Numbered from the stretch's first letter, positions 3,752-38,659 are shown. The stretch: DNA of 38,872 nucleotides from a virus (IMGVR_UViG_3300032323_001112:1-38872); one strand, 5' to 3'. Made by a program: numbers and translations. Notes: generated by a model from the sequence alone, not told the origin.

Positions 3752-3767
3752 AAAAACTCCTTTATAA

Positions 3768-3775
3768 TATTTATC
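3768..3775 (-). promoter_or_regulatory. Late-type promoter box GATAAATA before the epimerase gene
   Basis: On the - strand this reads GATAAATA, 7 of 8 matches to the T4 late consensus TATAAATA. It lies about 17 bases upstream of the epimerase ATG at 3751. T4 late transcription uses this box with a phage sigma factor. Assignment is by motif and position only. Confidence 0.5.
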
Positions 3776-3817
3776 TAATTAACTGCTAGGTAAATAGAGA
3801 ATAACAAAAGGATTGAG

Positions 3818-6416: not shown

Positions 6417-6433
6417 AAAATCTCCAATTTTTA

Positions 6434-6441
6434 TATTTATG
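6434..6441 (-). promoter_or_regulatory. Late-type promoter box CATAAATA for the FkbM gene
   Basis: On the - strand this reads CATAAATA (7 of 8 to the T4 late consensus), 17 bases upstream of the FkbM ATG at 6416. It forms a divergent pair with the box at 6455-6462. Confidence 0.5.
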
Positions 6442-6454
6442 CATTATATGCCCA

Positions 6455-6462
6455 GATAAATA
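6455..6462 (+). promoter_or_regulatory. Late-type promoter box GATAAATA for the 6467 glycosyltransferase
   Basis: GATAAATA (7 of 8 to TATAAATA) lies 4 bases before the ATG at 6467. Transcription would therefore start near or just past the ATG unless an internal start is used. It is the divergent partner of the box at 6434-6441. Confidence 0.45.
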
Positions 6463-6466
6463 TCCC

Positions 6467-13657: not shown

Positions 13658-13658
13658 A

Positions 13659-14054
13659 TTAGTTTCTCACTTTCCATAGTTGCCAGCGTTTTCCTTGATC
13701 ATAAAGAATATAACCAAGAATCATCATTTCTTTCATCAGTAGTTCGCTTGGTAGTTCTCTGGACATTATCATAACATCGCATCTAGTCAATCTTAAAAAA
13801 GAAAGATTTTCTAATAAAAACTGATAGCCATTCTCGTCTACTTGTATCAATCTTATCTCGGGAAGATTAGTCATATCTGTACCCGATCTATAGATGATAT
13901 TTTTACTACGTAACAAAGAACTATCTACACCAAAGACAAAAACACTGTAAAACACCTTAGAGAAGCTTTCTAATAACTCTCGGTCTGGACCATAGATCAC
14001 AGCATTGCCGTTACTGCCAAACGTTTTTTTTAGTTTTTTAGAAAAGTCACTCAT
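13659..14054 (-). CDS. Hypothetical protein of the glycan island
   Basis: I do not recognise this 131-residue protein. It contains alternating hydrophobic strands (NAVIYGP, VFYSVFVFGVD, EIRLIQVD) and ends RWQLWKVRN. The order strand, VDEN, helix, then CDVMIMS resembles part of a Rossmann-type methyltransferase lacking its N-terminal glycine loop, but no SAM motif is convincing. It lies one base upstream of gmd on the same strand and is probably the first gene of that - strand unit. A weak late-like GGTAAATA lies upstream on the - strand (14078-14085). Confidence 0.7.
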   Translation of the reverse strand: MSDFSKKLKKTFGSNGNAVIYGPDRELLESFSKVFYSVFVFGVDSSLLRSKNIIYRSGTDMTNLPEIRLIQVDENGYQFLLENLSFLRLTRCDVMIMSRELPSELLMKEMMILGYILYDQGKRWQLWKVRN

Positions 14055-14094
14055 AAAGGCATTAAATACTCTGATAATATTTACCTTGCCAAAA

Positions 14095-14919
14095 ATGCGA
14101 ATAAAAATTTATACAGAATACGGTGCTCTAAACAGTCGTCCAGTCTTTGAGGCGTTGTCCAAGGGGTTGAAAAACTGCGGGCATACTGTCGTTGATTCGG
14201 GCGAGGATGTAGCTGTGATTTGGTCTGTACTCTGGTTAGGCAGGATGAAAGGCAATCAGCGTATCTACGAACTTTGCAAAAAAAGAAATATTCCAATATT
14301 AGTCGCAGAAGTTGGAAATCTAAAAAGAAACGAAACCTGGCGTTTGAGTATAGACAATATCAATGGGCTAGGAATCTTTGGCAATGATCAAGGCCTGGAT
14401 CCTAACAGAGCTAAAAAGTTAGGCATCTATCTTGAACAAGAAAAACATTCTAGAAAAAACCCGATACTTATTGCCTGCCAACATCAACATAGCCTACAAT
14501 GGAAAGATCTACCTCCGATGCAGGCTTGGGCCGCAGCAATGGTAAAACAAATACAAGAACGCAGCCAACGGCCGATTATTGTAAGACCTCATCCTAGAAA
14601 TATTTTTACTCTAAATGTTCCGGGAGTACATCTTCAAGTTCCTAATAAACTTAACAATACCTATGATGACTTTGACATAGACTACAACTACCATTGTGTG
14701 ATAAATCATAACAGTGGCCCGGCAGTTCAGGCAGCGATCAAAGGCATTCCTATTGTCTGTGATAAATCTAGTCTTGCTTTTCCTGTTAGCGAATCTATAG
14801 AAAATATCGAAAATCCTAAGTTCAAAGATCGTTCGGATTGGTTTTTAAAACTTTGCCATACCGAGTGGACTTTGGGCGAAATAGAAAGCGGTGAACCTAT
14901 AAAAAGACTTATCAAATAG
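14095..14919 (+). CDS. GT-B-like capsule-type protein, paralogue 3 of 3
   Basis: I place the start at the ATG at 14095 (product 274 residues, beginning MRIKIYTEYGALNSRP), because the 30 codons before it lie in the divergent gene and intergenic DNA. The protein shares with the 7935 and 10191 proteins the blocks CVINHNSGPAVQAAIKGIPIV, SIENIENPKFKDRSDW and a final TLGEIESGEP. PIIVRPHPRN supplies the Arg-His-Pro turn seen in paralogue 2. A histidine-rich ILIACQHQHSLQW lies in the middle. It is the last glycan gene before the replication block. Confidence 0.68.
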   Translation: MRIKIYTEYGALNSRPVFEALSKGLKNCGHTVVDSGEDVAVIWSVLWLGRMKGNQRIYELCKKRNIPILVAEVGNLKRNETWRLSIDNINGLGIFGNDQGLDPNRAKKLGIYLEQEKHSRKNPILIACQHQHSLQWKDLPPMQAWAAAMVKQIQERSQRPIIVRPHPRNIFTLNVPGVHLQVPNKLNNTYDDFDIDYNYHCVINHNSGPAVQAAIKGIPIVCDKSSLAFPVSESIENIENPKFKDRSDWFLKLCHTEWTLGEIESGEPIKRLIK

Positions 14920-21543: not shown

Positions 21544-22617
21544 ATGCAACTTAATCCAGTTTATTTATATCCAAATAAAGTCAATGTGTATTTAAATTTA
21601 TCTTCTGCTTGGCAGATAGAGAGGTATCGTAACGTGTATAATAGAACCCTTAAACTATATAGAGGTGGTGATAATCGAATAGATTTTCAAGTGAAAAACT
21701 CCGATCAAAAAGCCATCGAAATAACAGGCTATCAACCTGTATTTGTGCTGGTTAATCAGAAGGAAGAACAGATCCTAAAAAAAGATGCTGTGATACAGAA
21801 CGCCACAAGCGGCCGAGCATACATAGTGTTAAGTGAATCTGATCTATGGAATATCGACAAGGGATTCTACAAATACGCATTAACATTAGAAGCTAGAACT
21901 ACCAGCGGTACTGGTTACATAGTAACAGAAAAGAAACCTACTTATATTGACTCTCAATACGGCATTTCTGCTCCGGTGGAAATATTTGGCGACATATCCG
22001 GTGAACCTGTATCTAGCGTTGAAGTTGATATATTCAAAGAAACTAGACCGTCGTCTGTGGGCGAAGAAGAACCAACATTCTTTACCAGCAGTCTAATCGA
22101 TGCTGAATATCACACAAGAAAAGCAGCAGCAGTTCATACCTTTGCATTTTATATGACTAACTATTCAGGTGAAATCAAAATCGAAGCTAGTCTAAGCGAT
22201 GGTGGTAATCCTGGAGTTTGGACCGAACTTAACAGCTTCCAAGTGTCCGATCGTAGCGAACCATTTTATCACAATGTCGAAGGCAAATACAAATGGTTTA
22301 GAATCAAACATTTGCCCAACCAAATAAATTCTATCGCAGACTTTACTATACAGCAAACTATATTGGGTTACTATCTAGTAGACATCAATGAAGCAGGATC
22401 TGGATACTCAATCGGTGATACATTGACTATTGCCGGAAATCTAATAGGTGGCGAAACACCCACTAACGATGTAGTCATTACTGTAGAAACTGTAGATACA
22501 TCTGGAAGAATTTTGAGTATCAGCCATTCTGGTGTTTCTTATAATGGTGTTCGTACCTATGTACTACCTGGCGAACTTTCCAACCAAGGAACATTTGACA
22601 AAGTACTCTACAGATAG
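21544..22617 (+). CDS. Probable virion structural protein
   Basis: A 357-residue beta-rich protein that looks like a phage structural component. The N-terminal part (YRGGDNRIDFQVKN, ITGYQPVFVLVN) resembles the baseplate or upper-tail-fibre N-domain type that carries a polymer-like strand pattern. The region GSGYSIGDTLTIAGN (about 283-297) is a motif repeated in many phage tail and neck proteins (G-x-GYxxGDTLTI). A perfect late promoter lies upstream. It sits alone between replication genes, as single structural genes do in T4-like marine phages. The exact virion location cannot be told. Confidence 0.75.
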   Translation: MQLNPVYLYPNKVNVYLNLSSAWQIERYRNVYNRTLKLYRGGDNRIDFQVKNSDQKAIEITGYQPVFVLVNQKEEQILKKDAVIQNATSGRAYIVLSESDLWNIDKGFYKYALTLEARTTSGTGYIVTEKKPTYIDSQYGISAPVEIFGDISGEPVSSVEVDIFKETRPSSVGEEEPTFFTSSLIDAEYHTRKAAAVHTFAFYMTNYSGEIKIEASLSDGGNPGVWTELNSFQVSDRSEPFYHNVEGKYKWFRIKHLPNQINSIADFTIQQTILGYYLVDINEAGSGYSIGDTLTIAGNLIGGETPTNDVVITVETVDTSGRILSISHSGVSYNGVRTYVLPGELSNQGTFDKVLYR

Positions 22618-22623
22618 TATAAT
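22595..22623 (+). promoter_or_regulatory. Perfect consensus sigma70 promoter for the primase gene
   Basis: -35 TTGACA (22595-22600, inside the structural gene), spacer of exactly 17, -10 TATAAT (22618-22623, directly after the preceding stop codon), then 6 bases to the primase ATG at 22630. All 12 box positions match. There is no ribosome site, so the mRNA is predicted to start at or very near the ATG. Confidence 0.8.
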
Positions 22624-22629
22624 ATATCT

Positions 22630-23649
22630 ATGACACCTGTCGTAGATATTTTTAGATCAATACTACCTGCAAAAGCAAAACATAGTCCCAGTGGCTGGAC
22701 TAGTTTTAATGCTCCTTGCTGCCACCATCGCGGACATAAGCCTGATACAAGAAAACGTGCCGGTGTTAGATTTGACGGCAATGGTATAGTCTATAACTGT
22801 TTCAACTGCAAGTTCACCACGGGATGGCAACCAGGCTCTCCGTTTGGTGAAAAGATGAAAAATCTATGCAAGTGGTTAGGTGCTTCAGATGATGCTATCA
22901 AAGAACTTATATTCGAAGCATTGAAAAGCGAAGGCGAAGATTATCAACCTCAACAGATCTTTGTCACTAACTTTACAGAAAAAGATTTACCAGAAGGTGC
23001 ATTACCGTTAGCCGAATGGCTTGATGCTAGCCTTAATGTTGACGAAGAACAACAGTTAATAAAAGCCGTAGAATATGTTGTTAATAGAGGGTTTGATCCT
23101 CTAAGTAAAAACTTTTATTGGAGCCCTGTAGCAGGATACTCTGATAGAGTCATTCTTCCTTATTACTATCAGAGAAAAATCGTAGGTAGCACAGCAAGAA
23201 AAGTCACCGACGGAAAACCAAAGTATATTTCGGATCAACATCCGCATTTTGTCTACAATCTAGACGATCAACCTGACGAAAGAAAATATATTCTAGTCAC
23301 AGAAGGTCAGTTTGATGCATTGTCTATCGGTGGAGTTGGTCTCCTCACAAACGATATTTCAGAGCAACATTCCAGACTAATTAATAATATTGGTAAAGAA
23401 GTTATAGTAATACCCGATCAAGACAAACCTGGACTAGCTGTCATAGATCGAGCTGTTGAGTTAGGGTGGAGTGTGGCTTTTCCAAACTGGGATCCAGAGA
23501 TCAAAGATTGTGCTGAAGCAGTTAGAAAATATGGCAAACTATTTGTCATTGTTGATATACTAAAGACCGCAGAAAAGAATCCAATCAAGATCGAAATGGC
23601 AAAAAGATCCATGATCCAGAAGTTAAAACTCGGAGAAAAAAATGTTTAG
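22630..23649 (+). CDS. 61: DNA primase gp61
   Basis: T4-type primase that makes RNA primers for lagging-strand synthesis with the gp41 helicase. The 339 residues have an N-terminal zinc-binding region with CCHHRGH (30-36) and YNCFNCKF (55-62), a linker, and a TOPRIM-type catalytic core: ILVTEGQFDAL (221-231, Glu225) and VIPDQDKPG (260-268, DQD 263-265). The length matches T4 gp61 (342). It is preceded by a perfect sigma70 promoter with the ATG six bases past the -10 box. The stop overlaps the start of a 38-codon gene. Confidence 0.93.
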   Translation: MTPVVDIFRSILPAKAKHSPSGWTSFNAPCCHHRGHKPDTRKRAGVRFDGNGIVYNCFNCKFTTGWQPGSPFGEKMKNLCKWLGASDDAIKELIFEALKSEGEDYQPQQIFVTNFTEKDLPEGALPLAEWLDASLNVDEEQQLIKAVEYVVNRGFDPLSKNFYWSPVAGYSDRVILPYYYQRKIVGSTARKVTDGKPKYISDQHPHFVYNLDDQPDERKYILVTEGQFDALSIGGVGLLTNDISEQHSRLINNIGKEVIVIPDQDKPGLAVIDRAVELGWSVAFPNWDPEIKDCAEAVRKYGKLFVIVDILKTAEKNPIKIEMAKRSMIQKLKLGEKNV

Positions 23650-28620: not shown

Positions 28621-28628
28621 TATAAATA
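28621..28628 (+). promoter_or_regulatory. Late promoter TATAAATA for the 28634 gene
   Basis: A perfect match to the T4 late consensus, 5 bases before the ATG at 28634. This is unusually close, so the transcript would start around or inside the first codons unless a downstream start is used. Confidence 0.6.
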
Positions 28629-28633
28629 AAATT

Positions 28634-29074
28634 ATGACCACTGAAGCTGTGTTTAGAGATTTAGTGCGTGATCATCAACAGCGCACTGGATTTGAAATGC
28701 CCCTGCTGTTAGAGCAGTATGTCGTGGAGCTCTTAGCCTCCAGGCTTGATCGTGTTGATGTTATTCCCCAGCCATCTTTTGCCGAACACTATCTCACACT
28801 GTGCCAACGGCCCCGTGCTGATCAGCTGAAAGATTTTGGAGATTCTGCACTGTTCTTTTGTAGTCTAATGCCTGACTATGGTCAGCGCAGAGGACTGAGC
28901 ATGGACTACTATGCTACTCTGGGCATAACTACCTACTACAGTCTAGGGGATATGATCAAGGATCCTAGGTTCACACAGTTGGGCAACTGGTTTTATCATC
29001 TGCAGAAGTTCCTAAACTCTGCGATAAGACCTGATCAAAGATTAGAGTTATTTAAGTTTGACTACCTGGCTTGA
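28634..29074 (+). CDS. Conserved hypothetical protein of a bacterial-type family
   Basis: A 146-residue helical protein. The pattern FRDLVRDHQQRTG, LLEQYVVELLASRL, then LKDFGDSALFFCSLMPDYGQRRGLSMDYYATLG resembles a conserved bacterial hypothetical family (GDxxLFxxGFFP...vDxDYYxxxG) of unknown function. Finding it in a phage suggests capture from a bacterium. The late box lies just upstream. Its 3' end overlaps the convergent 29052 gene by 23 bases. Confidence 0.72.
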   Translation: MTTEAVFRDLVRDHQQRTGFEMPLLLEQYVVELLASRLDRVDVIPQPSFAEHYLTLCQRPRADQLKDFGDSALFFCSLMPDYGQRRGLSMDYYATLGITTYYSLGDMIKDPRFTQLGNWFYHLQKFLNSAIRPDQRLELFKFDYLA

Positions 29075-29292: not shown

Positions 29293-29300
29293 TATAAATA
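29293..29300 (+). promoter_or_regulatory. Late promoter TATAAATA for the 29306 oxygenase gene
   Basis: A perfect T4 late consensus, 5 bases before the ATG at 29306. Together with the divergent box at 29282-29289 it makes a 19-bp bidirectional late promoter. Confidence 0.6.
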
Positions 29301-29305
29301 AACCC

Positions 29306-29824
29306 ATGCAGATACATATCTTTGATCAAGCACTGACTCGTGCAGAAAATAGCCAATATTTGGCCTGGTGCCGCCGCAAGCCCTGGCGTTGGGGTGAAAG
29401 CGACTATCAAGGCGGTCCACCTGCAGGCGTGATATCAGATTTGGAAGATTCAGAAGATCGAACTCTGTTTATCGAACGAGCACAGAAGCTCTGTGATCGC
29501 CTAGCAGGGCTTCCTGTAAATCGCACCTACATCAACATGTACATGCCCGGTGAACGACCACACTGGCACAGAGACGGTGCAGTATGGACTGTGCTGTACT
29601 ATGTCACAGACGAACGCGAACCACAATGGGGCGGTCAGACAGAATTCCTAGATCACACCACCATGGAAATCCGAGGCATACTGCCCCAACCTGGACGCAT
29701 GATAGTGTTCAATGGTGATCTCTTACATCGTGCCACTGCTTATCCGCACAGAGAGCGTTTTACCATAGCTGTCAAGTTCGATCGTAGCCTTGTGCAAAAA
29801 GGACCACCGCCCAAGGACAGCTAA
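29306..29824 (+). CDS. 2OG-Fe(II) oxygenase (prolyl-4-hydroxylase/AlkB-like fold)
   Basis: A 172-residue single-domain 2-oxoglutarate-dependent dioxygenase with a complete metal triad: HWHRDGAVWTVLYYV (86-100; His88, Asp90), GGQTEF (109-114), and GDLLHRATAYPHRERFTIAVKF (137-158; His141), with the 2OG arginine at Arg149 or Arg151. The architecture matches prolyl-4-hydroxylase-like 2OG-FeII_Oxy_3 proteins common in marine T4-like phages, for which DNA, protein or tail hydroxylation roles have been suggested. A late promoter lies upstream. The stop shares a base with the next ATG. Confidence 0.88.
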   Translation: MQIHIFDQALTRAENSQYLAWCRRKPWRWGESDYQGGPPAGVISDLEDSEDRTLFIERAQKLCDRLAGLPVNRTYINMYMPGERPHWHRDGAVWTVLYYVTDEREPQWGGQTEFLDHTTMEIRGILPQPGRMIVFNGDLLHRATAYPHRERFTIAVKFDRSLVQKGPPPKDS

Positions 29825-31962: not shown

Positions 31963-32183
31963 CCTAGTTCCTTAAGCTTCTTTAATGAGTTGCGGCTTTC
32001 CAGCTTGGCCAGCTCTACATCATATACGAACTTGACTGCATAGCATAAGAACACCACTGACCATGCTATGCCTACTGTGGCTAGACCAAAGTAGTTGATG
32101 GCTACAGTATTGACCACGCCCACTGCTATGGCACTGCCTAAGAACACTGCTACTCTCAGTGCTGCCATTTGTTTAATAGTCAT
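31959..32183 (-). CDS. Small membrane protein (two helices)
   Basis: A 74-residue protein with two predicted transmembrane helices (about 8-28 and 33-53) followed by a basic, charged C-terminal tail (LESRNSLKKLKELG). Size and topology would suit a pinholin, antiholin or a host-envelope modifier, but no family could be recognised. It overlaps the upstream gene by 11 bases and the downstream gene by four. Confidence 0.75.
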   Translation of the reverse strand: MTIKQMAALRVAVFLGSAIAVGVVNTVAINYFGLATVGIAWSVVFLCYAVKFVYDVELAKLESRNSLKKLKELG

Positions 32184-32352
32184 TGCCGCTCTCCCTCTGT
32201 GCCATCAGTGTACCGCAATACATGATGCCCAAGCCTGTGACTGCCACTGCTAGACTGGTCAACAGGTCTGCATCGGTCACGCTGTTCTCTACGCCGCCTA
32301 CACCAAATGCTGTGGTTACCAAGCCCGTAAAGATCATAAATGCTGTTTTCAT
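32173..32352 (-). CDS. Small membrane protein
   Basis: A 59-residue product if started at the ATG at 32352, which has TAGGAG upstream. The 30 codons before it overlap the promoter region and are not expected to be translated. The two hydrophobic segments (FMIFTGLVTTAFGVGGV and LLTSLAVAVTGLGIMYCGTL) look membrane-spanning, with a polar ESGNDY end. First gene of the unit expressed from the promoter at 32384-32414. Confidence 0.72.
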   Translation of the reverse strand: MKTAFMIFTGLVTTAFGVGGVENSVTDADLLTSLAVAVTGLGIMYCGTLMAQRESGNDY

Positions 32353-32383: not shown

Positions 32384-32414
32384 ATTATAGCACTGTTGTG
32401 CCCGTGTGTCAACC
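32384..32414 (-). promoter_or_regulatory. Early sigma70 promoter P1
   Basis: Read on the - strand: GGTTGACA, 17-bp spacer, TATAAT (32384-32389). The spacer half next to the -10 (GGCACAACAGTGC) is identical to that of P2, pointing to duplication. It drives the 32352-31566 gene set. Confidence 0.85.
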
Positions 32415-32639
32415 AAAATGACGCACTAGCCCTGTGACGCAAAGGGCGATGGCCACTGCGTTAATGGTCATCTGCGGGTAGTTCTTCACACGCACGGTCC
32501 ACGTGAAAAAGCATATGGCACCTAACAGTCCCATCAGCTGCACAATTGCTGTGTGCTGAGGGAACAGGTTCATCGCTGCATACATGGCCAAGATGAACGC
32601 TGTGCCCATCCATTGAATCGTGTTGTTTAATGTGTTCAT
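32409..32639 (-). CDS. Small membrane protein with leaderless-type start
   Basis: A 76-residue product starting at the ATG at 32639, beginning MNTLNNTIQWMGTAFILAMY. There are two or three hydrophobic helices with a conserved-looking FFTWTVRVKNYPQ turn, somewhat like a small transporter fragment or PnuC-type half. The ATG lies only six bases from a perfect TATAAT, and there is no ribosome site, so the mRNA probably begins at the ATG. An internal Met at codon 11 is the alternative start. The stop TGA lies inside the -35 box of P1. Confidence 0.68.
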   Translation of the reverse strand: MNTLNNTIQWMGTAFILAMYAAMNLFPQHTAIVQLMGLLGAICFFTWTVRVKNYPQMTINAVAIALCVTGLVRHFG

Positions 32640-32645
32640 GTGTGT

Positions 32646-32676
32646 ATTATAGCACTGTTGTGCCAAACTGTCAACC
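32646..32676 (-). promoter_or_regulatory. Early sigma70 promoter P2
   Basis: GGTTGACA, 17-bp spacer, TATAAT (32646-32651). The start codon at 32639 lies six bases past the -10, so transcription is predicted to begin on the ATG. Confidence 0.85.
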
Positions 32677-32781
32677 AAAAATCAAGGTGCCCAGAGCTGC
32701 TGTGCCGATCAACAAGAACTGTGCGATGCCCGTCCAGAACATGAACCAAGTAACAGCGACGATCCCGATCAGCTTCAGCAT
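32671..32781 (-). CDS. 36-residue membrane micro-protein
   Basis: A very short gene with a good ribosome site (AAAGGAG, 6 bases before the ATG). The product begins MLKLIGIVAVTWFMFWTGIA and continues as an almost wholly hydrophobic helix to the end (LGTLIFG), a single membrane anchor. Its stop codon TGA lies within the -35 box (TTGACA) of P2. Promoter P3 is 31 bases upstream. Function unknown. Such peptides in phage early regions may alter membrane enzymes. Confidence 0.72.
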   Translation of the reverse strand: MLKLIGIVAVTWFMFWTGIAQFLLIGTAALGTLIFG

Positions 32782-32811
32782 TTCCAGCTCCTTTTGTTTA
32801 ACTATGACTCT

Positions 32812-32842
32812 AGTATATGATCAATGATCCAATCTGTCAACC
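32812..32842 (-). promoter_or_regulatory. Early sigma70 promoter P3
   Basis: GGTTGACA, 17-bp spacer, TATACT (32812-32817). Followed by a leader with AAAGGAG and the ATG at 32781. Confidence 0.85.
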
Positions 32843-33067
32843 ATTTTTGTTGTTGCAGAATTGCCACATCTTTAGCTCAGCGCCACGCAGGCCCAGCAGG
32901 ACTCCCTCGAAGTCCCGGTAGGAGCAGCAGCCTGCCACGTTCGGATACACTGTGTAGCCATAGACCTCAAGGTCCTTCTTGGCTCTGGTAACAGCAGCCT
33001 TGGCGGGCCCTGGCTTACGATAGTACTTGACTAGGTCACCGTTCTCGCTGTAGGTAACCCAACCCAT
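32837..33067 (-). CDS. Small hypothetical protein
   Basis: A 76-residue product started at the ATG at 33067, which overlaps the upstream stop by one base (TAATG) behind AGAGGTGG. It begins MGWVTYSENGDLVKYYRKPG, then has a basic helix (AKAAVTRAKKDL) and a CCSYRDFEGVLLG segment. No known domain. Its stop TGA lies inside the -35 box of P3, the third such case in a row. Confidence 0.72.
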   Translation of the reverse strand: MGWVTYSENGDLVKYYRKPGPAKAAVTRAKKDLEVYGYTVYPNVAGCCSYRDFEGVLLGLRGAELKMWQFCNNKNG

Positions 33068-33306
33068 TAGGCCACCTCTTTGAAGATCTTGTAGTTGTGA
33101 CGGCTCAACACACGGATAGCCTGCTGTATCTCTTGGGCATTCTTCTCTTCCCAATCCAGCATCTCACGAGCACCCTTGATGGTGTCTTCCTCGTAGCTTT
33201 TGCCACTGAAGAAGTGAGTGTAGACGTAGCACTTGAGGCCCTCGTCATTGAGAGTCATCTGTATCGTGCCGATACCCTTGTAGCTCTGGATTTCGCCTTG
33301 TTTCAT
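33067..33306 (-). CDS. Small hypothetical protein
   Basis: A 79-residue product (start at the ATG at 33306 with AAAGGGAGCGA upstream). It alternates short strands and helices (IGTIQMTLNDEGLKCYVYTHFF, IKGAREMLDWEEKNAQEIQQAI) and ends YKIFKEVA. Not recognised. The gene is the first of a two-gene unit driven by P4. Confidence 0.75.
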   Translation of the reverse strand: MKQGEIQSYKGIGTIQMTLNDEGLKCYVYTHFFSGKSYEEDTIKGAREMLDWEEKNAQEIQQAIRVLSRHNYKIFKEVA

Positions 33307-33336
33307 TGTCGCTCCCTTTTGTGTTACTATGTGTTG

Positions 33337-33367
33337 ATTATACGATCTTTTGGATAACCCGTCAACC
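33337..33367 (-). promoter_or_regulatory. Early sigma70 promoter P4
   Basis: GGTTGACG, 17-bp spacer, TATAAT (33337-33342). One -35 mismatch (G for the last A). Drives the genes at 33306 and 33067. Confidence 0.82.
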
Positions 33368-33380
33368 ACTAGGGTTTCTG

Positions 33381-33764
33381 TTAGCCGTGGCTTTTCTGCA
33401 ACAGATCCTTGCCTTGGTCTACGATCATGCGTATGCCTTTGAAACGTCGGGCGATACCATTGACTAGATCATCCGGGTCTGTGCCCTGACCTAGGAACTC
33501 GTCTGTGTCCGACTTATAGGCATAGATCTGGCCGCCGTGCTGTTCGATCTTGATGTGTATGGTTTCTCGGATGCCCAATTCACGGTCTTCTTCTGAGCGA
33601 TCGTCTGGAACATCGATTCCATTATCTCGAGCCACCTCTCTCAGCTGCTGTTCTGTGATCTTGAGATCTCTCATGATCCTGCGAAAGCTCAAGAGATGGA
33701 TGATTTCGGAGACTTTGTAACCGATGACAAAGCCCAGGGCTAGTAGTACGATGATGTCTATCAT
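33381..33764 (-). CDS. Membrane-anchored small protein
   Basis: A 127-residue protein with a single N-terminal membrane helix (IDIIVLLALGFVIGYKVSEII, with no charged residue in its first 15 positions) and a soluble charged domain after it (RSEEDRELGIRETIHIKIEQHGG, then YAYKSDTDEFLGQG). The domain has strand-helix alternation and may face the cytoplasm. I recall related N-anchored proteins in marine T4-like phages without known function. Third gene of the unit driven by P5. Confidence 0.75.
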   Translation of the reverse strand: MIDIIVLLALGFVIGYKVSEIIHLLSFRRIMRDLKITEQQLREVARDNGIDVPDDRSEEDRELGIRETIHIKIEQHGGQIYAYKSDTDEFLGQGTDPDDLVNGIARRFKGIRMIVDQGKDLLQKSHG

Positions 33765-33772
33765 AATTGTAA

Positions 33773-33994
33773 TTATTCCGCGATTTGATGATCCTTGACC
33801 ATACGGTACAAGGGATCTACGATCTCTATGTGTTCCAGCTCGAAATCACTGGTGGCCCAATCCACCCACTCTTCTGTGAACACTTCCACTTCACCGTTCT
33901 GCAGTTGCTCACGTGCCTGTTCCTCGGTTTCGCATTCGACCACGTAGATCTCTGATACGATGGCGTTGCGCCAAAAGGTAAACTTCTTAGTCAC
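33773..33994 (-). CDS. Small acidic hypothetical protein
   Basis: A 73-residue acidic protein with a strand-helix-strand start (FTFWRNAIVSEIYVVECETEEQAREQL) and an acidic Trp-containing middle (VFTEEWVDWATSDFELEH). The pattern of a strand, an ECETEEQA helix and another strand resembles small phage proteins of the DpnD/PcfM type, but this is not certain. It overlaps the upstream gene by eight bases. Confidence 0.72.
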   Translation of the reverse strand: MTKKFTFWRNAIVSEIYVVECETEEQAREQLQNGEVEVFTEEWVDWATSDFELEHIEIVDPLYRMVKDHQIAE

Positions 33995-34325
33995 AGGCCA
34001 CTGCCTCCAAGGTCAACTGCTTCACAGGGTAAGCGATGCGACCATCATACTCTAGCTGACTCTTCTCAAAGTCAGTGAGGTAGTCATCAGCTTCCACAGA
34101 CCACGTAAGGATGTATTCTTCGTAGTAGTCGCTGACTTCTTCGATCTGACCACGCAGTGCCATGACCAACTCACCGATGTGCTCGGCATTGGGCAACACT
34201 GATCCCAACTGGTAGGCGTAGTCGTTGCCGCCTTTGAACTTCCAATACTGAGGGCACTCGCCTGTGCCGTCCCAATCATGGGCACCGTAGTTTTCACGGA
34301 CTTGCGTTGTGATCATTAGCTTCAT
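33987..34325 (-). CDS. Conserved phage/bacterial hypothetical protein
   Basis: A 112-residue protein starting MKLMITTQVRENYGAHDWDG. This N-terminal block, followed by CPQYWKFKGG, is one I recognise as recurrent in phages and some bacteria, always as unknown. The remainder is acidic (EEVSDYYEEYIL, VEADDYLTDFEKSQLEYDG). The start is supported by TAAGGAGCGA and the P5 promoter. First gene of a three-gene unit. Confidence 0.78.
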   Translation of the reverse strand: MKLMITTQVRENYGAHDWDGTGECPQYWKFKGGNDYAYQLGSVLPNAEHIGELVMALRGQIEEVSDYYEEYILTWSVEADDYLTDFEKSQLEYDGRIAYPVKQLTLEAVACD

Positions 34326-34357
34326 AAGTGTCGCTCCTTATCGTTTACTATACCTAT

Positions 34358-34388
34358 AGTATAGCTCCAAAATGCTGATGTGTCAACC
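34358..34388 (-). promoter_or_regulatory. Early sigma70 promoter P5
   Basis: GGTTGACA, 17-bp spacer, TATACT (34358-34363). It lies directly behind the terminator at 34389-34418, so one unit ends and the next begins within 60 bases. Confidence 0.85.
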
Positions 34389-34418
34389 AAAAAAAAGGTG
34401 TGGCTTTTGGGCCACACC
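34389..34418 (-). terminator. Intrinsic terminator of the 34451 gene
   Basis: On the - strand, GGTGTGGC and GCCACACC (34411-34418 and 34397-34404) form a perfect 8-bp stem with a 6-base loop, followed by eight T (34396-34389). A textbook Rho-independent terminator, abutting promoter P5. Confidence 0.9.
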
Positions 34419-34450
34419 CTAAGGTCACCGCGACCGGGAGCGAATCGGTC

Positions 34451-34756
34451 TTACTCGGCGGTAACAGCTTGAGTGGTATTCCCACTCACAGCGGCCTGCT
34501 TCCCAGCAGGATTCTTTTTCTGCAGATCCTTGATCGCAGCCAATACAGCAGGTTTGCCTGCGCCATAGTTAGTTTCCACGAGATGCTGCGCGATCTCTGC
34601 CTTGGTCATTTCACGTGGGAGATCGATGAGCTCGATGTCTGTGTGACCGTTCTTGATCAGGATCTTTACGCGAGCTGCATCGTTAGCGAAACGAACCTTG
34701 GTCTTACCGTTTTGTGTCGAAATACCTGCGACTGCGAATTTCTTATCTGTAGCCAT
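34451..34756 (-). CDS. Conserved T4-like phage small protein
   Basis: A 101-residue protein starting MATDKKFAVAGISTQNGKTK, followed by VRFANDAARVKILIKNGHTD and a helix LPREMTKAEIAQHLVE. I recall the KFAVAGxST...KVRFAND pattern from conserved hypotheticals of marine T4-like phages. The C-terminus is a Lys/Ala/Thr-rich tail. It is monocistronic, with its own leader of about 60 bases, an AGAGG site and a strong terminator, so it may be made in quantity early. Confidence 0.78.
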   Translation of the reverse strand: MATDKKFAVAGISTQNGKTKVRFANDAARVKILIKNGHTDIELIDLPREMTKAEIAQHLVETNYGAGKPAVLAAIKDLQKKNPAGKQAAVSGNTTQAVTAE

Positions 34757-34820
34757 TTTATTTGCCTCTTAAGTTAAAAAAACATTTGCCTTTGTGTCTG
34801 CCGTTATTGGCATTATCATT

Positions 34821-34852
34821 ATATTAACACCAATCAACGTACTCTGTCAACC
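34821..34852 (-). promoter_or_regulatory. Early sigma70 promoter P6 (weaker -10)
   Basis: GGTTGACA as in the others, but the best -10 is TAATAT (34821-34826) at 18 bp. An exact TATAAT (34818-34823) would need a 21-bp spacer. It is the only member of the twelve with irregular spacing. It serves the gene at 34756. Confidence 0.6.
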
Positions 34853-34854
34853 AA

Positions 34855-35034
34855 TCATTTTACCAAAATAGTCTGTATCGATACAGCCTCCTTTTCATCT
34901 AGAGCTTGGATGAATTCATCATCGTAGACCAGATCCTGCATGGCCAGATCGATCAGCTCTTCTACTCTGTCGAGATCTGGCTCTCCAGCACCCTGGCACT
35001 CAACAACAAACTGAAAGTTATAGATTCTCGGCAT
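34855..35034 (-). CDS. 59-residue acidic protein
   Basis: A short gene whose ATG at 35034 lies 17 bases inside the end of the upstream gene. The product begins MPRIYNFQFVVECQGAGEPD and continues as an acidic helix pair (LDRVEELIDLAMQDLVYDDEFIQALDE), ending ILVK. Not recognised. Translational coupling with two upstream genes is likely. Confidence 0.68.
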   Translation of the reverse strand: MPRIYNFQFVVECQGAGEPDLDRVEELIDLAMQDLVYDDEFIQALDEKEAVSIQTILVK

Positions 35035-35311
35035 TGTCCCAAAACTCTTTCTTCAATGTAAACATGGTGTAGGCTTCGTCTTTCAAGTATATACTACTCT
35101 TCTCTGAATCCCAAGCCCATTTTGGCTGAGCACCGTCGAAGTAGTTAGCTCTGGCTAGGTTCTGTTCTGCACTAGGCCCAAACTGCGACCATAGCCAGTT
35201 GCGGACTCGGATCCATTGCCGAGTCCTATAGTCCTGGCTACCGTAGAACTCAACCCTATGACTAAAATAGCCATAGCCGTTGTAGTTGCGGTTGAGTTTG
35301 ACTACATTCAC
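35018..35311 (-). CDS. Small hypothetical protein with GTG start
   Basis: I start it at the GTG at 35311, which overlaps the upstream stop in a GTGA junction and has GGAG 12 bases before it. A TTG 15 codons upstream is the alternative. The product is about 97 residues: NRNYNGYGYFSHRVEFYGSQ, RVRNWLWSQFGPSAEQNL, then KWAWDSEKSSIYLKDEAYTMFTL. Rich in Trp and Tyr. Function unknown. It appears tied in translation to the api92-like protein before it. Confidence 0.68.
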   Translation of the reverse strand: MNVVKLNRNYNGYGYFSHRVEFYGSQDYRTRQWIRVRNWLWSQFGPSAEQNLARANYFDGAQPKWAWDSEKSSIYLKDEAYTMFTLKKEFWDNAENL

Positions 35312-35928
35312 AGCGTCTTCAACTCCGAGGTTTTCTCTACTCCGTCTTTGACCCAAGCAGTGAGCTCTTCTTCTTCCATGGCTTGATATTCACGGATGCA
35401 TTCAGAGATACCAAAGCATTCATCTAGATCTGGGTGCTCACTCTCGATCTCATCGGCACTCATGCCTTCTAGATTGATTTCTTCATCACAGCCATCTTTA
35501 TAGACGCCAGCAAAGCACATGCCTGATTCATAATACATCGCTTCAACACGGAAGCCTAGAGCCTCTAACTTAGCATAAGCCCCAGTTGGAGGTGCCCATG
35601 CACTGTCGAAACTTGTGTGTAGCATCCGGCCTTCTGGGTGGATGTCGCTGGCACCTTGCTCGCCTACATCCCATTTGGTTCCCCACTCGCCCACGCAGTA
35701 GTCATACCAGTTGCCATAGCCGTAGACTTCTAGATTGCGTTGTGTGTCTGCTTCCAGTTTAGCCTGCTCTACGGGATCACCTACGCTTCCCGCAACGATC
35801 ATAAGATCTTTAGGCACTGGACAGAATTCATTCAAGAACTCTCCACGCTCGAGTGCATCGTAGGCACGCTTGATCATTGCAGGATCATCATGTTCTAAGA
35901 CTAGATTGTTATTGCACCAATTCGGCAT
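35308..35928 (-). CDS. Api92/DUF1281-like ferredoxin-fold protein
   Basis: A 206-residue protein with the hallmark start MPNWCNNNLVL and the central YCVGEWGTKWDVGEQG block, typical of the Api92-like family (DUF1281) found in many phages and plasmids, function unknown. FDSAWAPPTGAYAKL (about 107-121) is another family feature. The C-terminal part is acidic. A strong TTAAGGAGCGA site precedes the ATG and overlaps the stop of the micro-membrane gene, so both come from promoter P7. Confidence 0.82.
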   Translation of the reverse strand: MPNWCNNNLVLEHDDPAMIKRAYDALERGEFLNEFCPVPKDLMIVAGSVGDPVEQAKLEADTQRNLEVYGYGNWYDYCVGEWGTKWDVGEQGASDIHPEGRMLHTSFDSAWAPPTGAYAKLEALGFRVEAMYYESGMCFAGVYKDGCDEEINLEGMSADEIESEHPDLDECFGISECIREYQAMEEEELTAWVKDGVEKTSELKTL

Positions 35929-35937
35929 ATTCGCTCC

Positions 35938-36048
35938 TTAAAGGTTAATCAAACCATCGATGAACACAGCCATCGCCAACACTAGGATACCAACTTGGAC
36001 TGCACGAAGCAGAATGTAAGTAATCAAATCAGCAATACTGTTGTTCAT
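35938..36048 (-). CDS. 36-residue membrane micro-protein with leaderless-type start
   Basis: A short gene whose ATG lies only five bases past a perfect TATAAT (P7) with no ribosome site. The product begins MNNSIADLITYILLRAVQVG and continues as a hydrophobic helix (ILVLAMAVFIDGLINL), a single-span membrane peptide. The TAA stop overlaps the ribosome site of the following api92-like gene. Leaderless translation is predicted. Confidence 0.68.
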   Translation of the reverse strand: MNNSIADLITYILLRAVQVGILVLAMAVFIDGLINL

Positions 36049-36053
36049 AATGT

Positions 36054-36084
36054 ATTATACAATCAACGACTCAAAATGTCAACC
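36054..36084 (-). promoter_or_regulatory. Early sigma70 promoter P7
   Basis: GGTTGACA, 17-bp spacer, TATAAT (36054-36059). The -35 and most of the spacer lie inside the 36063 gene, and the ATG of the next gene is five bases past the -10. Confidence 0.85.
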
Positions 36085-36263
36085 AAACGATTCACTTCCA
36101 TCCGATCGTTGACCTTTTCCACAAACTCTTCTTCGAGCTTGTCTGCAGATTTAGTAAAGATCTGCCCAATGGTCCGCTCGATCTTGATGCGTTCCACCAG
36201 CGTCCTAGGTTCTTCCAGAGCCTTCATAGCTCGTTGGATGTATTCGAACTCTTGTGGGGTCAT
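36063..36263 (-). CDS. Small helical protein
   Basis: A 66-residue charged, helical protein (MTPQEFEYIQRAMKALEEPR, then RIKIERTIGQIFTKSADKLEEEFVEKV). The last codons (encoding NRLVDILSR) run through the -35 element of P7, where GGTTGAC encodes Val-Asp. It overlaps the upstream gene by four bases. Function unknown. A coiled-coil or DNA-binding helix pair is possible. Confidence 0.7.
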   Translation of the reverse strand: MTPQEFEYIQRAMKALEEPRTLVERIKIERTIGQIFTKSADKLEEEFVEKVNDRMEVNRLVDILSR

Positions 36264-36478
36264 ACCGCATCCTTAACTTCTTCGACTGTGACCAAGTAGC
36301 CTACACCGTTGATCTCTAGGTTGATGGTCTTTTTGGTTGACCGGAAGGCACCCTGTTCATCTAGGTCCCAGTTGATCTTACCAACACCTTCAATCTGGAC
36401 CGGTTCACGATAGTCCATCATGGACGCCATAAGTGCTTTCTTAATACGATCAGCAATAAAATCACAGTATCTTAACAT
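36260..36478 (-). CDS. Small hypothetical protein
   Basis: A 72-residue protein with an N-terminal helix (LRYCDFIADRIKKALMAS), then beta strands (VQIEGVGKINWDLDEQG, INLEINGVGYLVTVEEV). The start has AAGGAGAGCGA upstream and is the first gene of the P8 unit. Unrecognised. Confidence 0.72.
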   Translation of the reverse strand: MLRYCDFIADRIKKALMASMMDYREPVQIEGVGKINWDLDEQGAFRSTKKTINLEINGVGYLVTVEEVKDAV

Positions 36479-36503
36479 TGTTCGCTCTCCTTAGTATGTG
36501 TAT

Positions 36504-36534
36504 ATTATAACACCACTAAGCCAATCTGTCAACC
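36504..36534 (-). promoter_or_regulatory. Early sigma70 promoter P8
   Basis: GGTTGACA, 17-bp spacer, TATAAT (36504-36509). The spacer begins GATTGG, shared with P3 and P12. It drives the genes at 36478 and 36263. Confidence 0.85.
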
Positions 36535-36542
36535 AAAATGTC

Positions 36543-36560
36543 TGTGGCTTTTATGCCACA
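36543..36560 (-). terminator. Hairpin with TGTGGC/GCCACA stem at the end of the 36551 gene
   Basis: A 6-bp perfect stem with a 6-base loop overlaps the stop codon of the 36551 gene. Only four T follow at a distance, so it is a weak terminator or an RNA-end hairpin. The stem sequence recurs at 34397-34418 and 38541-38556. Confidence 0.5.
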
Positions 36561-36664
36561 AAGCCCCAGTAGGCAATCAGCACTACAGCATAGATGGCCA
36601 AGGCAGGCAGGATCTGATCAAACATATCGCGCCACACCCATGATATATATTCTTGCTCGTTCAT
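36551..36664 (-). CDS. 37-residue membrane micro-protein
   Basis: A short gene overlapping the SWIM protein's stop by four bases. The product begins MNEQEYISWVWRDMFDQILP and then forms one hydrophobic helix (ALAIYAVVLIAYWGFVA), an N-in or N-out single-span peptide. One of several such peptides in this early region. Function unknown. Confidence 0.7.
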   Translation of the reverse strand: MNEQEYISWVWRDMFDQILPALAIYAVVLIAYWGFVA

Positions 36665-37002
36665 ACGATCTCCTTTGTGTGTTTACAGTTGCCACGGAAA
36701 GTGAATCCAGGGCAAGTACAGGTCTTAGCCTCGGTATCCACGAAGTAGCTGTTGCCCTTGGACCCCTTAACCTCCACAATTAAATTCTCTGAATTAATTG
36801 CCGGGGTCTCGAATGGGTTAGGCTCCAGCTTCTCAAACTTACGACCCCTGCGATCGATCTTGATCTTTCCTGACAGCACACGGATCTCTGCAGTGCCCCA
36901 AGGGCGGTAAGCAACGATCTTATCACCATCTAGCAGGTAGTCGTGATTGGGAGTGCGGTAGCTCACACCAGTCCACTCAGTGACTTCACGCAAGGCTTCC
37001 AT
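36661..37002 (-). CDS. Small protein with C-terminal SWIM-type zinc finger
   Basis: A 113-residue protein. The C-terminus carries a SWIM finger, CTCPGFTFRGNCKH (CxC...CxH), a zinc-binding motif used for DNA or protein contacts in SWI2/SNF2, plant and bacterial proteins. The N-terminal two thirds is a beta-rich domain containing RTPNHDYLLDGDKIVAYRP and IKIDRRGRKFEKLEP. The start overlaps the upstream stop (TAATG). As an early-region protein it may bind DNA or host proteins. That is inference. Confidence 0.82.
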   Translation of the reverse strand: MEALREVTEWTGVSYRTPNHDYLLDGDKIVAYRPWGTAEIRVLSGKIKIDRRGRKFEKLEPNPFETPAINSENLIVEVKGSKGNSYFVDTEAKTCTCPGFTFRGNCKHTKEIV

Positions 37003-37271
37003 TAACGGTAGTCCTTCTTGTCGCCATAGCGTTCGTTGTATTCGTAGCCAGCGTAGTATTCCTTGATCTCGTCTATGCTCAACCCTTGGTCAACACGCGG
37101 ACCTGAATCGCCACCAACACCACCATAGTGCGGACCACGTGGACGACCGTAGTAGGAATCGGCACTGCCTCGATCATAGAGGCTACCATGATTCTTGCGG
37201 ATGAACTGCCAACCACGCAGTGCTCGCACCACCTGCTTCTGCTCGTCCTCGGTCATGATATGTAGATACAT
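37002..37271 (-). CDS. Small Gly/Tyr/Arg-rich protein
   Basis: I start it at the ATG at 37271 (89 residues), which has an AATAAGGAGCGA site. The 43 codons upstream cross promoter P9 and are not expected to be translated. The N-terminus MYLHIMTEDEQKQVVRALRG is helical. The middle is low-complexity (DRGSADSYYGRPRGPHYGGV), resembling disordered RNA- or protein-binding segments, and the C-terminus is acidic and aromatic. Function unknown. Confidence 0.72.
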   Translation of the reverse strand: MYLHIMTEDEQKQVVRALRGWQFIRKNHGSLYDRGSADSYYGRPRGPHYGGVGGDSGPRVDQGLSIDEIKEYYAGYEYNERYGDKKDYR

Positions 37272-37301
37272 CTTTCGCTCCTTATTTCTTACTATGCTTC
37301 T

Positions 37302-37332
37302 ATTATAGCGCCAGTCGTCCAAAGTGTCAACC
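37302..37332 (-). promoter_or_regulatory. Early sigma70 promoter P9
   Basis: GGTTGACA, 17-bp spacer, TATAAT (37302-37307). It drives the 37271-36551 unit (three genes). Confidence 0.85.
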
Positions 37333-37335
37333 AAA

Positions 37336-37656
37336 TTAACGAGGAATACGAACCACAATGCCCTGTGGCGTAGAAACAACATCATAGCCCTTGCTCTCAA
37401 GAATGCTCACAGCCTCTTTGGCCAAGCTCTTATCCCGCTTGATGGCACCTTCGATCTTCACCGCGATAAACTTCTTACGATAGTTGATGTAGCTCCCAGC
37501 GTAGGCGAATGCTGTGTCCAACAAGTCCAGGGCTCTCTGTGCCAGGCACTGCTGTTCCCTAGTGTAGGTGCATGCCATTTCACGATTGCGGAAGTAGGCG
37601 TTTAGAGCAGCCCCGCGCTTGTTATCGTCTGCATCTCTGTAGTTTAATGCTTTCAT
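37336..37656 (-). CDS. Small hypothetical protein
   Basis: A 106-residue product if the second of two adjacent ATGs (37656) is used. AAGGAGCG then stands five bases upstream, as in the neighbouring genes, while the first ATG (37659) would be too close. The protein starts MKALNYRDADDNKRGAALNA and contains a helical core (REQQCLAQRALDLLDTAFAYAG), IAVKIEGAIKRDKSLAKEAV and a final strand GIVVRIPR. Unrecognised. It is the only gene of the P10 unit. Confidence 0.74.
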   Translation of the reverse strand: MKALNYRDADDNKRGAALNAYFRNREMACTYTREQQCLAQRALDLLDTAFAYAGSYINYRKKFIAVKIEGAIKRDKSLAKEAVSILESKGYDVVSTPQGIVVRIPR

Positions 37657-37685
37657 CATCGCTCCTTGTTATTCACTATACCTCT

Positions 37686-37716
37686 AGTATAGCGCCGATC
37701 ATCCAAATGGTCAACC
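37686..37716 (-). promoter_or_regulatory. Early sigma70 promoter P10
   Basis: GGTTGACC, 17-bp spacer, TATACT (37686-37691). One mismatch at the last -35 base. It abuts the terminator at 37720-37739, repeating the terminator-promoter pairing seen at P5. Confidence 0.82.
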
Positions 37717-37719
37717 AAT

Positions 37720-37739
37720 AAAAAAGGCCCTTTCGGGCC
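37720..37739 (-). terminator. Intrinsic terminator of the 37745 gene
   Basis: On the - strand, GGCCC-GAAA-GGGCC (37739-37726) is followed by six T (37725-37720). A strong Rho-independent terminator with a stable GAAA loop, beginning five bases after the stop of the 37745 gene. Confidence 0.9.
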
Positions 37740-37744
37740 CAGGG

Positions 37745-38092
37745 TTAATCCAAACGTGATCCACTGTAGGCTTCGAATCCGTATCGCTTGAACACCGCCG
37801 CCGCAGCATCGGCACCAGCTTCGAGGGTGTCGATGTTCTGGCAACCGAAACCGCTGGGGTTATACAGTTGCAGCCCGCCTGAGTAGCTAGGACGGATTCC
37901 GCACTCTTTCAGTGCTCGGCCGATCTTGGTGTTGCCCTTGATCTTGTAGATGTTGACCCAGGCAAAGCCACAGGCGAAACGATCCTGGCCACCCAAGACT
38001 TCACGGAAGTACTTCTCGGCAGCAGCATACGCAGCAGTCTTGGCTTCATTGACGATTGCAGGAATCTGCTCGGGGGTAACGGTAACAGTCAT
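37745..38092 (-). CDS. Conserved phage hypothetical protein
   Basis: A 115-residue protein of a family I recognise from many phages of Gram-negative bacteria, function unknown. The hallmarks are DRFACGFAWVNIYKIKGNTK (about 37-56) followed by YNPSG and a C-terminal AAAVFKRYGFEAYSGSRLD. The N-terminal helix is alanine-rich. The start has TTAGGAGCGA upstream. It forms a monocistronic unit with P11 and a strong terminator. Confidence 0.82.
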   Translation of the reverse strand: MTVTVTPEQIPAIVNEAKTAAYAAAEKYFREVLGGQDRFACGFAWVNIYKIKGNTKIGRALKECGIRPSYSGGLQLYNPSGFGCQNIDTLEAGADAAAAVFKRYGFEAYSGSRLD

Positions 38093-38123
38093 AGTTCGCT
38101 CCTAAGTTGTTTACAGTTTTAAT

Positions 38124-38154
38124 AGTATAGCACCGATCTGCGGCACTGTCAACC
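38124..38154 (-). promoter_or_regulatory. Early sigma70 promoter P11
   Basis: GGTTGACA, 17-bp spacer, TATACT (38124-38129). It stands three bases after the stop of the 38158 gene. Confidence 0.85.
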
Positions 38155-38157
38155 GAT

Positions 38158-38331
38158 TTACGAGTTCATCGTATCGTAGGGACTAAAACTTTCTTCTCCC
38201 AACGACTCAGATTCCATCCAACCGTAGACGATCTCTACGGGGCACTCCAAGATCGCAGCGATCATCTTAGGACTGTGACCATCGATGTACAGTTGCTCGA
38301 TGTCATATGCAAGTTCGCTCATCGTGCTCAT
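38158..38331 (-). CDS. 57-residue protein with helix-turn-helix-like segment
   Basis: A short gene whose ATG overlaps the upstream stop (ATGA). The product begins MSTMSELAYDIEQLYIDGHS, followed by PKMIAAILECPVEIVYGWM. The spacing of IEQLYIDG, PKMIAAIL and VEIVYGWM is that of a helix-turn-helix (sigma region 4-like). The C-terminal tail is acidic. It could be a small DNA-binding regulator of the early region. No experimental relative is known to me. Confidence 0.7.
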   Translation of the reverse strand: MSTMSELAYDIEQLYIDGHSPKMIAAILECPVEIVYGWMESESLGEESFSPYDTMNS

Positions 38332-38453
38332 TTCACGGTCTCTTTCATGACTTCTTGGGTTTTACCTACGGCCTTGTCAACGGCTGATGCAACACCAGAC
38401 ACACCAACAGTGGCTACGAACATACCTGCAATGAATGCTAAAAGTAGTTTCAT
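38328..38453 (-). CDS. 41-residue exported or membrane-anchored micro-protein
   Basis: A short gene with an AAAGGAGCG site and overlaps of four bases with both neighbours. The product starts MKLLLAFIAGMFVATVGVSG, which reads as a signal peptide or anchor with an ASA site near residue 24, followed by a charged helix (VDKAVGKTQEVMKETVK). I recall similar MKxLLAFxxGMFVATVG peptides in cyanophages. A periplasmic or envelope role is likely. Confidence 0.72.
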   Translation of the reverse strand: MKLLLAFIAGMFVATVGVSGVASAVDKAVGKTQEVMKETVK

Positions 38454-38659
38454 TTTACCGCTCCTTTCGTTGTTTCAGTATCTATATTGTACGATCGAAC
38501 ATCCAATCTGTCAACCTCTATGTGCGTAGCAGCGGGGTCAGTGGCTAAAAAGCCACACCCCCTGGCACTCTTGTATAGGTGGGCGCAGAATTGGCTCGCG
38601 ACTGATTCATCTGCTTTAAGGTTGTAGCCTAGGACTGCCAACAACCACCCGTAGAACAT
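38450..38659 (-). CDS. Small protein whose 3' half contains promoter P12
   Basis: A 69-residue protein. The ATG shares a base with the upstream stop (TAATG) and its stop overlaps the next ATG (ATGA), so the frame is respected at both ends. It begins MFYGWLLAVLGYNLKADESV, with a short hydrophobic start, two Cys-containing segments (FCAHLYKSARGCGF) and a polar tail. The last third is encoded by the P12 promoter and the ribosome site of the next gene, so these bases serve two functions. It is unrecognised, and it remains possible that only the promoter matters here. Confidence 0.6.
   Translation of the reverse strand: MFYGWLLAVLGYNLKADESVASQFCAHLYKSARGCGFLATDPAATHIEVDRLDVRSYNIDTETTKGAVK
38486..38516 (-). 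promoter_or_regulatory. Early sigma70 promoter P12
   Basis: GGTTGACA, 17-bp spacer, TACAAT (38486-38491). It lies wholly inside the coding region of the 38450 gene and drives the genes at 38453 and 38331. Confidence 0.75.
38534..38561. repeat. Hairpin with GTGGCT/AGCCAC stem inside the 38450 gene
   Basis: The arms GTGGCT (38541-38546) and AGCCAC (38551-38556) pair around AAAA, extended by GGGGT (38534-38538) and ACCCC (38557-38561) with a two-base bulge. No T-tract on the - strand, so termination is doubtful. It sits just upstream of P12. Confidence 0.5.

Follow-up and report, generated by a model that had tools for sequence, protein, structure and literature searches.

The 38,872-base IMG/VR virus record IMGVR_UViG_3300032323_001112 (hereafter the window, meaning this whole stretch) comes from an uncultured T4-like giant-phage relative. 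About twelve near-identical promoters headed by GGTTGAC lie on its - strand, between 32384 and 38516. This region is very probably an early-promoter array of a T4-like, PA5oct-related phage, served by host sigma70 and carrying an added clade-specific signal. Such an array is of a known kind, the T4-like early-promoter array, while the class-specific signal and a systematic class of predicted leaderless genes are new.

Promoter array in the window

The window contains 15 copies of GGTTGAC against 3.7 expected, and 12 of the copies lie on the - strand at 32408-38516. The extended pattern GGTTGAC-N18-TAYAMT has 11 exact matches, all on the - strand at 32384-38516, with exactly 17 bases from TTGACN to the -10 element in 11/11. 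A scan beyond the array, as proposed by the first-pass annotation, found the full pattern nowhere else in the window, nor in 100 shuffles, and the reversed pattern also gave no match. The twelfth site (34852), which that annotation had called irregular (P6), reads TTGACA-18-TAATAT, with an 18-bp spacer and TG ahead of the -10 element, and scores 10/12. The other GGTTGAC matches (15083, 15197, and 36335 on the + strand) have no -10 element. The picture of dense, strong host-type promoters ahead of small genes is supported.

An AAGGAG/AGGAGC-type Shine-Dalgarno leader of 25-32 nt precedes the ATG at 9/12 sites. Sites 32676 and 36084 have no such leader, their ATGs standing 6 and 5 nt past the -10 element, and site 34852 has a long leader. 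The claim that most promoters are followed by a AAGGAGCGA leader is correct, with two of the twelve sites looking leaderless. The shared spacer TTGG was also borne out, being present at the position named earlier in 6/11 exact sites.

In about 17-19% of GG sites (72/415), in the window at 32837-32842 and 32409-32414, the -35 TTGAC supplies the TGA that ends the open reading frame (ORF) ahead of it as a Gly-stop, a tight packing in which genes and promoters overlap. At three sites a terminator-like hairpin stands directly upstream, with its T run entering the promoter. The number of such hairpins over the whole region is not above that in shuffles, and their placement alone is notable.

All individual elements of the array are on the - strand. 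P1 (GGTTGACA-17-TACAAT, 38486..38516) is followed by a Shine-Dalgarno leader and an ORF start at 38453, and P2 (TATACT, 38124..38154) by the leader TTAGGAGCGA and the gene 37745-38092. P3 (GGTTGACC, TATACT, 37686..37716; gene 37336-37659) is found immediately past an intrinsic terminator, GGGCCCGAAAGGGCC-T6 (37725..37740), whose tail adjoins it. The leader ATAAGGAGCGA follows both P4 (37302..37332; gene 37002-37271) and the TATACT promoter at 34358..34388 (gene 33987-34325); upstream of the latter is an intrinsic terminator with a 10-bp stem (34395..34420), whose T run passes into GGTTGACA. P5 (36504..36534; leader AAGGAGAGCGA, gene 36260-36478) has a terminator-like hairpin immediately upstream (36541..36562). 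The promoter at 36054..36084, with its ATG 5 nt past the -10 element, would serve a predicted leaderless ORF, and a Shine-Dalgarno-led gene (35308-35928) is next. The irregular P6 (34821..34852) precedes the gene 34451-34756. A promoter with TTGACG and a CCAA-type spacer (33337..33367) is followed by the leader AAAGGGAGCGA and the gene 33067-33306. In the promoter at 32812..32842 (leader AAAAGGAGCT), GGTTGA doubles as the Gly-stop that closes an ORF at 32837. The last two are the TATAAT promoter at 32646..32676, with its ATG exactly 6 nt past the -10 element and a predicted leaderless cassette, and the promoter at 32384..32414 (leader ACTAGGAGCAGCG, gene 32173-32352). Some sites also have an inverted repeat, GTTGCA..TGCAAC, ahead of them; it was rejected, being coding in the window, where it belongs to the ORF that ends at 32837 (C-terminus ...MWQFCNNKNG).

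Recurrence among related phages

A search of related phages found the array in seven uncultured relatives and in none of the cultured phages PA5oct, Atu_ph07, SCTP-2, and T4. The seven related records have 7-18 sites each, within one 4-15 kb block adjoining replication genes; in two of them, 15/15 sites fall inside about 13 kb of 199 kb and 17/17 inside about 13 kb of 116 kb. GG promoters number four in PA5oct, where they are dispersed, one in Atu_ph07, none in SCTP-2, Phosso, and T4, one in KVP40, and three in S-PM2. The promoter with an AGGAGCG leader was found in at least 120 IMG/VR stretches. When sites were anchored on the leader with no promoter required, a good -35/-10 pair was present in 371/487 non-redundant sites, 356 of them with a 17-bp spacer; part of this set was drawn from loci chosen by motif. 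Judged by these sequences, the array is a feature of the clade, and the GG is specific to the clade rather than general.

The class-specific signal

To avoid circularity, GG frequencies were counted in loci fetched solely via gp41 protein similarity, designated as unbiased loci. GG precedes 115/163 (71%) array-strand promoters, 8/66 (12%) sigma70-type promoters on the opposite strand, and 43/1519 (2.8%) TTGAC occurrences without a -10 element. After an 80% redundancy filter the counts are 94/140 for the array strand and 8/47 for the opposite strand (Fisher p 2e-9), a filter that used site identity and not a tree, so that the p-values overstate independence. These contrasts make the GG real and class-specific, and they uphold the earlier claim that it exceeds what sigma70 needs. 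Two simpler origins were rejected. Overlapping coding, in which GG would arise from the Gly-stop codons GGT TGA, is not its cause, since GG is present in 68% of sites that have no stop overlap and in 85% of those that have one. Nor does GG belong to the sigma70 promoters of these phages in general, as those on the opposite strand show.

Array promoters also carry TTGG at fixed positions (-39, -27, or -19) or CCAA at -23. TTGG(-27) is present in 117/429 sites, compared with 29.5 in column shuffles and 0/64 on the opposite strand, and CCAA(-23) in 42, compared with 13.9 in column shuffles. The two never occur in one promoter, against 11.5 expected (p 1e-6). The sequence ANANACATA across the predicted start is conserved in array promoters. 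As regards an extended -10 element (TGn), T at -15 is found in 45-60% and G at -14 in 31-48%, with TG flagged at 5/12 window sites. Near the place of a T4-type A-rich UP element (around -40 to -60), A/T is mildly preferred at about -38 to -42, and positions further upstream are at background. We take GG at -37/-36, the TTGG/CCAA blocks, and the start ANANACATA together as a discrete class signal, absent from the other sigma70-type promoters of these phages.

Variable-sequence inverted repeats were also observed in the -35/-10 spacer, with stems of at least 5 bp in 33/429 GG-class sites against 9.2 in column shuffles (for example at L164:12665, L113:590, and L096:7038, where L numbers denote loci); some have a TTCG loop. 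A hairpin with a fixed axis in the spacer was rejected, as covariation showed no consistent pattern.

Whether the polymerase or a phage factor reads this signal is nearly even. One reading, which comes close to an even chance, needs no dedicated factor: the GG and the spacer blocks would only adjust the contacts made by host RNA polymerase, or the shape of the DNA, as a host-specific extended -35 and a curved spacer. Conservation of G at -36 in the early promoters of several T4 relatives speaks for this reading (PMC1524935); the early promoters of RB49, RB43, and Aeh1 also favour G at -33 and are TTGAC-like (PMC1524935). In the clade, G at -36 is present in 130/163 array-strand sites, and the novel part of the GG is the G at -37. 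Alternating T/A tracts in the spacer and the partial presence of TGn point the same way. However, the opposite-strand promoters, presumably read by the same polymerase, are without all of these marks.

The other reading, credible if not one we would favour outright, is that GG and TTGG/CCAA form the operator of a phage-encoded regulator specific to this class, for example for early shut-off, in promoters that are otherwise ordinary sigma70 promoters. A binding site at the GG is possible, and the TTGG/CCAA elements strengthen it. The 4-bp blocks behave as units at fixed positions, are mutually exclusive, and do not appear in opposite-strand promoters whose -35/-10 elements are just as good. TTGA/TTGG/TTGR starting at 0, 8, and 16 form an 8-bp register, although the upstream TTGG falls outside it. 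GG and TTGG(-27) are associated in the unbiased loci (p 1e-5), but not among the more numerous Shine-Dalgarno-led sites (p 0.69), a set that is itself selection-biased. No candidate regulator was identified.

Predicted leaderless genes

The distance from the -10 element to the ATG is bimodal in the clade: 127/692 ATGs are at exactly 6 nt and 19 at 7 nt, few are at 8-18 nt, and a second mode lies at 23-34 nt. A distance of 6 nt would put the A of the ATG at +1, because the -10 element spans -12 to -7. In the unbiased loci, ATG at 6 or 7 nt is found at 47/66 opposite-strand and 22/163 array-strand promoters, and a Shine-Dalgarno sequence at only 2/66 of the former. Among the families with this type of start are the primase (56 loci), a small membrane protein (17), a family of 105-115 aa (13), and many singletons, and the N-termini read from the 6-nt ATGs are conserved. 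A systematic leaderless class is therefore predicted for the clade. No report of leaderless mRNA in this phage group was found in the open-access literature.

The window has ATG-at-6 sites at 22595 (primase) and 32674, where 0.01 would be expected. The primase promoter (22595..22623, +) is a non-GG TTGACA-17-TATAAT promoter of the opposite-strand class, 6 nt ahead of the ATG of the gp61-type primase gene (22630..23649, +), which is predicted to be leaderless and has a like arrangement in 56 loci. The small membrane-protein gene (MNTLNNTIQW..., 32409..32639, -) is likewise predicted to be leaderless, as is its family in 17 loci, and its stop is inside the -35 element of the next promoter. A 36-aa hydrophobic ORF (36048 to about 35938, -) with its ATG 5 nt past the -10 element is a further candidate. 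T4-late-type boxes show a comparable arrangement, TATAAATA-5 nt-ATG, at 28621..28636 (+, gene 28634-29074) and 29293..29308 (+, gene 29306-29824), and both genes are predicted to be leaderless. Among the TATAAATA late boxes of the clade, 20/99 have the ATG at 5 nt, while other offsets mostly have 1-4 each (9 at 42). In PA5oct, the annotated exonuclease, with its ATG at 158242, starts 7 nt past a -10 element, and gp262, at 144985, has a late box followed by a leaderless-type start.

An alternative is that the ATG 6 nt past the -10 element is a by-product of a conserved ATA at +1, the true starts lying downstream and nothing being leaderless. Leadered cassettes do show ATA there, and some cases (MDNKERAMK-type) have an internal Shine-Dalgarno sequence and then an ATG. 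This explanation is nonetheless improbable: 103/127 such ATGs open at least 21 codons, the opposite strand combines a weak ATA consensus with the high ATG frequency and scarce Shine-Dalgarno sequences given above, and the window primase has a stop codon just upstream and no nearer start, besides the conserved N-termini.

Several observations adjoin this predicted class. The excess of ATG at 6(7) nt is seen in the window at 22595-22630 and 32637-32676 and in loci L009-L168. The spacer of the primase promoter (window 22598-22622; L010:7875, L023:8937) contains a near-palindrome, TACTATATAGATAGTA, that is conserved and may be an operator. The PA5oct primase (NC_071039, 145855-145890) is annotated from a GTG adjoining the -10 element, and a GTG 6 nt further on suits the leaderless pattern of the clade better. 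A further promoter type, with the palindromic spacer GTAAATATTTTAC and the leader AAGGAGT, is found near 13 kb of gp41 loci (L009:13098 -, L012:13759 -, L018:13756 -, L091:5975 +, L139:5066 +).

Origin of the array

The first-pass annotation had proposed that one promoter-leader-gene cassette was copied many times. This is mostly refuted, and as a general account it is very unlikely: CACAACAGTGCTATAATACACACAT is common to 32414 and 32676, and adjacent pairs exceed 70% spacer identity more often (9.5%) than others (2-3%), but no paralogy links the proteins encoded downstream (best self-hit E 0.015), and spacer likeness is about equal inside one genome (0.40) and between genomes (0.39). Selection therefore keeps the consensus, with occasional local duplication (32414/32676).

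Proposed function and comparison with known systems

The array would work as follows. About 12 consensus sigma70 promoters (TTGACA, 17 bp, TATAMT) on one strand, each apparently serving one or a few small genes, would be read by unmodified host RNA polymerase at DNA entry. Most (9/12) have a short A/C-rich leader with a strong Shine-Dalgarno sequence, and some follow a terminator or overlie a preceding stop. A promoter and a strong short leader for each small gene or pair would allow a rapid parallel burst of small proteins, and many short mRNAs, transcribed strongly and simultaneously, each on its own, may contribute to host takeover or disarming. The class signal may set the array apart through tuned polymerase contacts or as a site for a phage regulator. 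In a minority of cassettes, ATG replaces ATA at +1 and translation would start without a leader.

Some points weigh against this account. We infer both the early timing and the use of host sigma70 from sequence. No strong UP element was seen, unlike in T4. Family searches name nearly none of the small - strand genes, and almost none has a recognisable function. AsiA, MotA, and RegB were not found in the window, seven relatives, and PA5oct (mostly fragments), with a positive T4 control; the T4 programme based on these families was therefore rejected as not transferable.

The closest parallel is the early promoters of T4, RB49, RB43, RB69, 44RR, and Aeh1, where many strong host-type promoters likewise stand, in T4-like genomes, ahead of small, mostly non-essential genes without known function. 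In T4, such consensus sites compete for host polymerase upon entry (PMC2988021). In both groups the promoters are near-consensus sigma70 sites with about 17 bp spacing and a consensus that extends past the -35 and -10 elements. The T4 -35 element is GTTTAC, whereas here it is TTGACA (GTTGAC at -36 to -31) with an extra G at -37. The fixed TTGG/CCAA blocks, the conserved start ANANACATA, the apparent lack of a strong UP element, and the packing of sites in one 10-15 kb block also differ from T4-type early promoters. PA5oct shares the primase-gp41 order and has an exonuclease and a primase starting 6-7 nt past a consensus -10 element (the primase if from GTG), but its GG promoters are just four and dispersed, with no array. 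A sequence shared before anti-defence genes in archaeal viruses (PMC11065993) is similar in that one conserved promoter signal serves many small, diverse early genes; those promoters are of the TATA/BRE type, and the array genes here are without known anti-defence function.

Lambda and the Thermus phage phiYS40 are known to have leaderless mRNAs (PMC3160421, PMC3594737). As in lambda cI and the phiYS40 middle and late mRNAs, the start codon is predicted here to be the first mRNA base, in many genes and not one. phiYS40 differs in its Thermus host, the present clade being T4-like and PA5oct-related. The clade also differs in combining two kinds of genes: Shine-Dalgarno-led early genes, and predicted leaderless genes that comprise opposite-strand replication genes, late-box genes, and a minority of those in the array.

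A two-code programme may be suggested, doubtful as it is at present. The early class would combine GG and a TTGG/CCAA element read by a phage factor with Shine-Dalgarno leaders, and the replication and late class would have leaderless mRNAs with AUG as their first bases, from sigma70-type and T4-late-type promoters. If this is true, the 5' end of the mRNA itself would signal the phase of the message to the ribosome.

Gene content and relatives

On its + strand the window encodes T4-type replication proteins, namely UvsX (319), a UvsW-type helicase (16121), gp61 primase (22630), and gp41 helicase (25333). Small genes form a block on the - strand between about 31 and 38.8 kb. The closest cultured gp41 is that of Pseudomonas phage PA5oct (Arenbergviridae), 52% identical, and cultured kin are thus distant. 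The primase-gp41 order is common to the window, PA5oct, Atu_ph07, Phosso, SCTP-2, and XaC1 (the primase label is absent in some). Between uvsX and uvsW, a large insert (2087-14919) contains sugar-nucleotide, glycosyl-, and methyltransferase-like genes, of which an epimerase was named by PHROGs and the others were judged from translations. Host assignment via GTDB contigs was tried and rejected: the 66 matches, many in Clostridia, are all single and none is an array, and therefore no host is assigned.

Significance

The array is a sequence tag for early genes in uncultured T4-like phages, and it is an expected site of host-takeover and anti-defence genes. The TTGG/CCAA marks, being specific to this class, suggest a regulator that can be tested for. 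A sharp leaderless class would make one T4-like phage group, with PA5oct on laboratory Pseudomonas aeruginosa PAO1 as a test case, tractable for a little-understood route of translation.

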